Shown here one piece after another: positions 1,751-18,842 of a stretch of 32,663 nucleotides of DNA (its first letter is position 1; the number at the start of each line of letters is the position of its first letter). The translations under genes were made by a program, and so were the position numbers. A model generated the notes under the pieces. That model saw only the letters and a program-made list of their open reading frames with translations. It was not told the origin of the DNA and ran no database searches. Origin of the DNA: Candidatus Methanophagales archaeon (lineage in GTDB: Archaea; Halobacteriota; Syntropharchaeia; Alkanophagales; Methanospirareceae). The stretch lies in assembly GCA_029241965.1 (NCBI GenBank), contig JAPWVK010000147.1:1-32663 (forward strand). The letters run 5' to 3'.

Positions 1751-1814
1751 CGGTTTGGTGGGTTAGAGCGTTAGGACGGCTACTATCGTCATCCCAGTAA
1801 CAAATCGCAATTAA

Positions 1815-1935
1815 TAAACCACGAGATTAACCCCCAGAAACAGAGGTTAATTGGGGCTGAAATCATAGATGAAGCACTGAAAAACGATTGTTATTATTGC
1901 TATCTCGTGAAATCTGCGTAATCTTGTGGTTATAA
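1815..1935 (+). repeat. Degenerate copy 1 of the dispersed CCACGAGATT / TCTCGTG-TGTGGTTA repeat
   Basis: Left 'aaaccacgagatt', right 'tctcgtgaaatctgcgtaatcttgtggtta', matching the ends of copies 2-5. Confidence 0.6.
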
Positions 1936-8960: not shown

Positions 8961-9120
8961 GTATTTGTATACAGGGGTAAAACCACGAGATTTCACAAGA
9001 TTAGCACAAGATTTTGGGGGTTAACATGGGATAAAAAAACCAATAGTGCACTTAAGCCTGATCCCGAGTATTATCTTCTCGTGGAAATCTGTGTAATCTT
9101 GTGGTTAGCTAAACAAACAC
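8961..9120 (+). mobile_element. MITE-like dispersed repeat, copy 2
   Basis: gtatttgtatac...aaaccacgagatttcacaagattagcacaag...tctcgtggaaatctgtgtaatcttgtggttagctaaacaaacac; imperfect TIRs; flanks tataattt / catgattt. Confidence 0.65.
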
Positions 9121-9225
9121 CATGATTTCAAGTCTGAAAACAAGGAAAACATCCGTTAGTTACTCTTTCTTTTCTAAAGAAGCGCGTGATCAAAAAAAAG
9201 AAAAAAAGAAAATTGGTTATTCGTT

Positions 9226-14993: not shown

Positions 14994-15158
14994 GTATTTG
15001 TATAGCAGGGGCAAATAAACCACGCGATTCCACGAGAATCACACAAGGATTTTGGGGGTTAACCTGAGATAAAAGAGTCAATAAAGTGCTTACGTCTGAA
15101 CCATTTTATTGCTTTTCCTGTGGAAATCGGTGTAATCCTGTGGTTAACAAAACAAGCG
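14994..15158 (+). mobile_element. MITE-like dispersed repeat, copy 3
   Basis: gtatttgtatagcagg...aaaccacgcgattccacgagaatcacacaagg...cctgtggaaatcggtgtaatcctgtggttaacaaaacaa. Confidence 0.6.
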
Positions 15159-18571: not shown

Positions 18572-18634
18572 CTCTACCTCTCAGTTATCTTTTGTACATG
18601 TTTATCTCTTTTCGCTAAAAAGAATAAAATTTAC

Positions 18635-18793
18635 GTATTTGTATAGCTAATCGAAAAAACCACGAGATTCCACGAGATTAGCACAAGAATTATGGGTTAG
18701 CAGGGGATAAAAAACCAATAGAGTGCTTACGCCTGATCCATATTAATATTTCCCGTGGAAATCGGTGTAATCTGTGGTTAGCTAAACAAACAG
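18635..18793 (+). mobile_element. MITE-like dispersed repeat, copy 4, with 8-bp target-site duplication
   Basis: Ends GTATTTGTATAGCTAA / (rc) CTGTTTGTTTAGCTAA match 13 of 16; flanked by AAATTTAC at 18627-18634 and 18794-18801. Confidence 0.75.
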
Positions 18794-18842
18794 AAATTTA
18801 CTTCTGTTATACTGTTGTATAAAATGAACCGGGCTTTTATAT

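Follow-up and report, generated by a model that had tools for sequence, protein, structure and literature searches.

A MITE family with IS66-type ends in ANME-1 archaea, most likely moved in trans by an IS66 transposase

It has been reported that archaeal MITEs, such as SM1-SM4 from Sulfolobus and those from Haloquadratum, are short, non-coding, intergenic elements with terminal inverted repeats and a target-site duplication; the Sulfolobus families comprise 25-44 copies, and IS66 is not mentioned in the review (PMC10969869). MITEPsy1 from Pseudomonas syringae is likewise non-autonomous and has terminal repeats in common with a presumed helper IS (PMC3189936), while ISDge4, from the ISBst12 group of the IS66 family, has a single ORF, 14-bp ends and an 8-bp duplication (PMC12898284). 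The ANME-1 element described here has the general features of the archaeal MITEs, but unlike the Sulfolobus families it has ~150 copies and an IS66 partner; it is non-autonomous with helper-like ends as MITEPsy1 is, whereas MITEPsy1 is IS5-like, with a 4-bp duplication and few copies. The ANME-1 IS66 resembles ISDge4 in its single ORF, its ~14-bp imperfect ends starting from GT, an AGC near the inner side and its 8-bp duplication, but when its ends GTATTTGTWTAGCT are compared with those of ISDge4, just 6-9 of 14 positions agree, and the MITE itself has no ORF. An earlier case of a MITE linked to the IS66 family was not found in the literature searched, nor was a paper on an ANME-1 MITE, and core-like sequence strings tested in the same way gave no match. 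The ANME-1 element is a new MITE family of a known type; what specialists might find surprising is its modular core.

The window, that is, the whole 32,663-nucleotide stretch that was analysed, is contig C147 of a 2.66-Mb ANME-1/Methanophagales MAG (G000). The element under study and its parts are as follows.

18635-18793, + strand: MITE of type A, 159 bp, no ORF, aligned with copies of the family (A1)
18627-18634, no strand: left target-site duplication, AAATTTAC, present as a single AAATTTAC at the empty site of the sister genome G004
18794-18801, no strand: right target-site duplication, AAATTTAC
18635-18650, + strand: left terminal inverted repeat, GTATTTGTATAGCTAA, whose first 14 bases equal the IS66 ends
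18778-18793, - strand: right terminal inverted repeat, reverse complement CTGTTTGTTTAGCTAA, family consensus GTATTTGTTTAGCTAA
18658-18688, + strand: left arm of the conserved core, with 10-bp repeats AACCACGAGATT/CCACGAGATT/AGCACAAGA, near-invariant in 32 copies
18750-18780, - strand: conserved right core arm, the inverted counterpart of the left arm, from the copy alignment

The initial annotation described a MITE-like element of ~159 bp without an ORF at this position, and the description is exact: the left end matches the reverse-complemented right end at 13 of 16 positions, the 8-bp duplication is perfect, and the two inner arms form an imperfect inverted pair. The element folds better than shuffled sequences (z of -3.35 with a DNA model and -3.49 with an RNA model), as expected of a palindromic MITE, and no Rfam match was found in the window. 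The window holds further copies.

8962-9121, + strand: second MITE copy, with an orthologous copy in the sister genome and flanks tataattt / catgattt (6/8)
14994-15156, + strand: older MITE copy without a recognisable duplication, whose G004 ortholog has another MITE nested inside
32523 to 32662/end, + strand: MITE copy cut by the contig end, also matched by the profile
1810-1932, + strand: decayed copy of the same core, in which type-B arms CAGTAACAAATCGCAATTAATA[core]TAATTTTCG replace the IS66-like ends; profile model positions 17-149

The end motif TTAGCTAAACAAAC occurs four times in the window at up to 2 mismatches, a number reached by none of 100 shuffles, and the inner repeat CCACGAGATTCCACGAGATTA also occurs four times, against 0 in shuffles. 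With a profile built from 32 copies, at least 148 family matches at E<=0.01 were found in the genome, a lower bound obtained from 150 scored candidates. In the 32-copy alignment, ~45-50 bp are conserved at each end while the centres differ; most copies are 142-190 bp long, within an overall range of 142-253 bp. Many contigs of the genome, for example C88, C158, C167, C212, C228 and C234, begin or break off ~120-145 bp into a MITE or IS66 copy, a sign of recent, near-identical copies; the flanking 8-mers can be used for contig joining, which was done for C114-C184, C218-C226 and C197-C111. Other mobile sequences were seen at some copies. At the starts of contigs C135 and C181 (L129:1-150, L132:1-150), a stretch similar to the 3' terminus of a group II intron, GAGCGGTATGAGG...AAAGTCTCACGTACCGTTC, abuts the MITE right end GGTTAGCTAAACAA, so that introns appear to have entered MITE copies on two occasions at an identical position; at L098:1501-1790 (C27:2938-3227), a MITE left end is followed by a frame that resembles the C-terminal part of an ISL3-family transposase, together with its terminal repeat, which is read as a probable later insertion of an IS into the MITE copy. 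In addition, palindromic repeats of ~10-bp units in a style like that of the MITE core, some of them nested in MITEs, lie at L294:1058-1398, L418:1501-1800 and in the flank of L019 (GACACAGATTAACACTGATTAACGCAGA...TCTGCGTAAATCAGCGTC; CCGCAGAGTTCACAGAG...CTCTGCGTTCTCTGCGG).

Evidence for transposition comes from the flanks of the copies and from the comparison with the nearest of the relatives that were compared with the window genome. The initial annotation had named missing flanking duplications at other copies, and missing empty orthologous sites, as observations that would speak against a non-autonomous transposable element; all of its refuting conditions were checked, each with an outcome that favours such an element, and the copies do not sit at fixed loci. 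Among the 50 own-genome copies with both ends anchored, 19 have identical flanking 8-mers and 27 have 8-mers with no more than one mismatch, whereas flanks of different copies, paired as a control, gave a mean of 0.42 exact 8-mers and never more than 3 in 200 reshuffles; duplication lengths of 6, 7, 9 and 10 stayed at background, with no case in the same copies, and the exact duplication is lost or altered in ~60% of MITE copies. The relative, ANME-1 cluster archaeon GoMg2 (G004, QBUM01; sequence-identical where compared), is ~96% identical to the window over the stretch and aligns on either side right up to the insertion point, where it holds the precise empty site CGCTATAAAATTTACTTCC with a single AAATTTAC in place of the two that enclose the element in the window. 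Reciprocally, G004 carries insertions at window positions ~3547 (duplication CTATTGTT/CTACTGTT), ~9193 (AAAAAAAG/AAAAAAAG) and ~16909 (TTTAAATA/TTTAGATA), at each of which the window has a single target. The empty site and the reciprocal copies within their own 8-bp duplications indicate that the element moved in both lineages after their split, and the MITE family is real, mobile and recently active. It is short and non-coding, is bounded by terminal inverted repeats (consensus GTATTTGTATAGC / GTATTTGTTTAGCTAACC), makes a duplication of a constant 8 bp, is dispersed in many copies, and has ends of 13-14 bp in common with an autonomous transposon of the IS66 family.

The element was found in 32 of 59 relatives, with strong matches in the genus and family and none outside the class among the 59 searched. 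The named genomes that carry it are overwhelmingly Methanophagales/ANME-1; a few matches stand under other names (Spirochaetales, Nitrosotalea and Halobacteria MAGs), which may reflect misbinning of contigs. Spread via viruses was checked as well, and no exact match to the element was found in viral contigs.

The initial annotation had rightly placed the mobilising transposase outside the window and proposed a search for a transposase gene with the same terminal repeats; this search recovered, in the same genus and at contig ends of the window genome, an IS66-family IS with matching 13-14-bp ends, whose transposase, encoded elsewhere, is the likely candidate. In G004 the IS is 1543 bp long (L186:1240-2782) with the ends GTATTTGTTTAGCTA and GTATTTGTATAGCTC; complete copies of 1540-1543 bp in G004, G002 and G014 have GTATTTGTTTAGCTAC or a near relative at one end and GTATTTGTATAGCTCACC at the other, these being both versions of the MITE ends, and the A/T asymmetry at position 9 is the same as in the MITE (G004, G002). 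The single ORF of the G004 copy, of 466 aa, matches PF03050 (1.4e-34), zf-IS66 and the NCBIfam IS66 model NF033517 (2e-82), so that the IS has the DDE_Tnp_IS66 transposase of the family; candidate acidic motifs (DETG, VVDGW and NLSEQ) can be read from its sequence. IS66-family ends generally begin GTAA; those of the partner begin GTATTT, and another IS66 of the window genome, on C240, starts with GTAACTACTCA. Another element beginning GTATTTGTATAGCGCAGTAAAAA but different inside was seen at L181:1251 and L099:1501, and in G023 it adjoins a canonical IS66 (GTAACTACTCAGCC...).

In the window genome, the full IS is unassembled, and contigs terminate in eight IS66 ends GTATTTGTATAGCTC, of which five are left ends and three are right ends. 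For every right end there is a single left end with an identical flanking 8-mer (AGATAGTT, AAAGGTTT and AAAATAAA), while the twelve other left/right pairings agree at 2-6 of 8 bases; the identical 8-mers at the three pairs indicate that the own-genome IS66 is present in several copies and duplicates 8 bp of its target, as the MITE does. No 8-bp duplication was seen at three complete IS66 copies in relatives (L186, L158 and L189), perhaps due to their age. From the matching ends and the same duplication we strongly infer that the ANME-1 MITE is most likely moved in trans by the IS66 transposase of the same-ended IS, with a probability of roughly 0.86. The substrate would be a ~125-bp imperfect palindrome enclosed by the 13-14-bp inverted repeats GTATTTGTWTAGCT; the ISBst12-like, single-ORF transposase would recognise these ends in trans, cut or copy the MITE and insert it into A/T-rich intergenic DNA, where an 8-bp staggered target cut would give rise to the 8-bp direct repeats.

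Beyond the ~14-16 bp of the ends, no similarity between the MITE and the IS66 was found, and the conserved 10-bp repeats of the MITE are absent from the IS. An origin of the MITE as a plain internal deletion of IS66 was rejected because there is no subterminal homology, and since the IS lacks the inner repeats of the MITE, the MITE may need further recognition. Conservation of the MITE reaches ~45 bp inward, of which only ~14 bp are in common with IS66, and this would suit a different, unsampled transposase from an autonomous element that shares all 45-50 bp of the ends; the match to IS66 would then stem from convergent or shared short ends. No autonomous element with full MITE ends was found among the loci read; left-end-only matches in own and related loci were considered for this part and are decayed or truncated copies beside ordinary genes. 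Such a transposase is nevertheless unlikely, as the exact 13-mer GTATTTGTATAGC, for which the base composition of the genome predicts ~0.1 occurrences, forms the ends of IS66 copies with an 8-bp duplication like that of the MITE.

According to heuristic gene calls, none of the 89 MITE copies with sufficient flank interrupts a called gene; 29 of 85 lie between convergent genes, which make up ~19% of the non-MITE intergenic baseline length, and 6 of 85 lie between divergent genes, which make up ~20%. Convergent enrichment, divergent rarity and a palindrome that folds better than shuffles could be taken for a fixed regulatory repeat, a structured-RNA repeat or a transcription terminator (the initial annotation had itself raised a structured RNA or protein-binding repeat at fixed loci), but this is very improbable and largely refuted by the empty sites: presence and absence are polymorphic at single-copy target sites, Rfam has no match, intergenic enrichment is what selection against gene and promoter damage would produce, and the orientation bias is weak. 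For the latter, 18:6 among codirectional copies in a first pass fell to 32:18 in a larger set (p=0.06), and no claim of a promoter or terminator role is made.

Returning to the IS66-ended MITE, its core also occurs with other ends. Most profile matches from genera g13 and g7 span only model positions ~17-150, and in many copies there the type-B ends TATAGTCATTCC(A/G)GTAATAAATTGCAA... and ...ATTTTCGGAATGACTATA enclose the same core AACCACGAGATT...AATCTTGTGGTTA together with its centre; genomes with the core between other ends are G017, G025 and G011. The type-B right-end motif TTTTCGGAATGACTA occurs 53 times in G017 against 3 for a control pattern and 54 against 7 in G025; in the window genome it is near background (9 against 7, with four exact matches). 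Type B is abundant in genus g13 (G017, G025), while type A is dominant in the genus of the window. A T-rich alternative centre is found with both end sets (type A, L034/L052; type B, L416). A second MITE type, with the core between TATAGTCATTCC / GGAATGACTATA ends and TA flanks, was seen at window 1810-1932 (decayed), L393, L408, L437 and L441. Type-B copies are mostly flanked by TA on both sides, in a small number of cases, which suggests a TA duplication for type B; no transposase was found at the lone TATAGTCATTCC ends at L418, L419, L422 and L424. On the simplest reading of these alignments, the core looks like a unit packaged by two transposition systems, perhaps by nested insertion followed by loss or by recombination. 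We give about even odds to the further proposal that the ~125-bp core is a transferable module under two unrelated end sets (IS66-type GTATTTGTWTAGCT with 8-bp duplications, and TATAGTCATTCC with apparent TA flanks), the non-coding parasite having exchanged one transposase for another between ANME-1 lineages, through either nested insertion or recombination.

For the ANME-1 archaea, which are uncultured methane oxidisers, the results add an abundant, recently active mobile element, which accounts for many breaks in the assembly and provides markers of lineage. The element is a MITE tied to the IS66 family, a "parasite of a parasite", and if the core is truly a two-ended module, it would be a natural case for how non-autonomous elements change their helper transposase.
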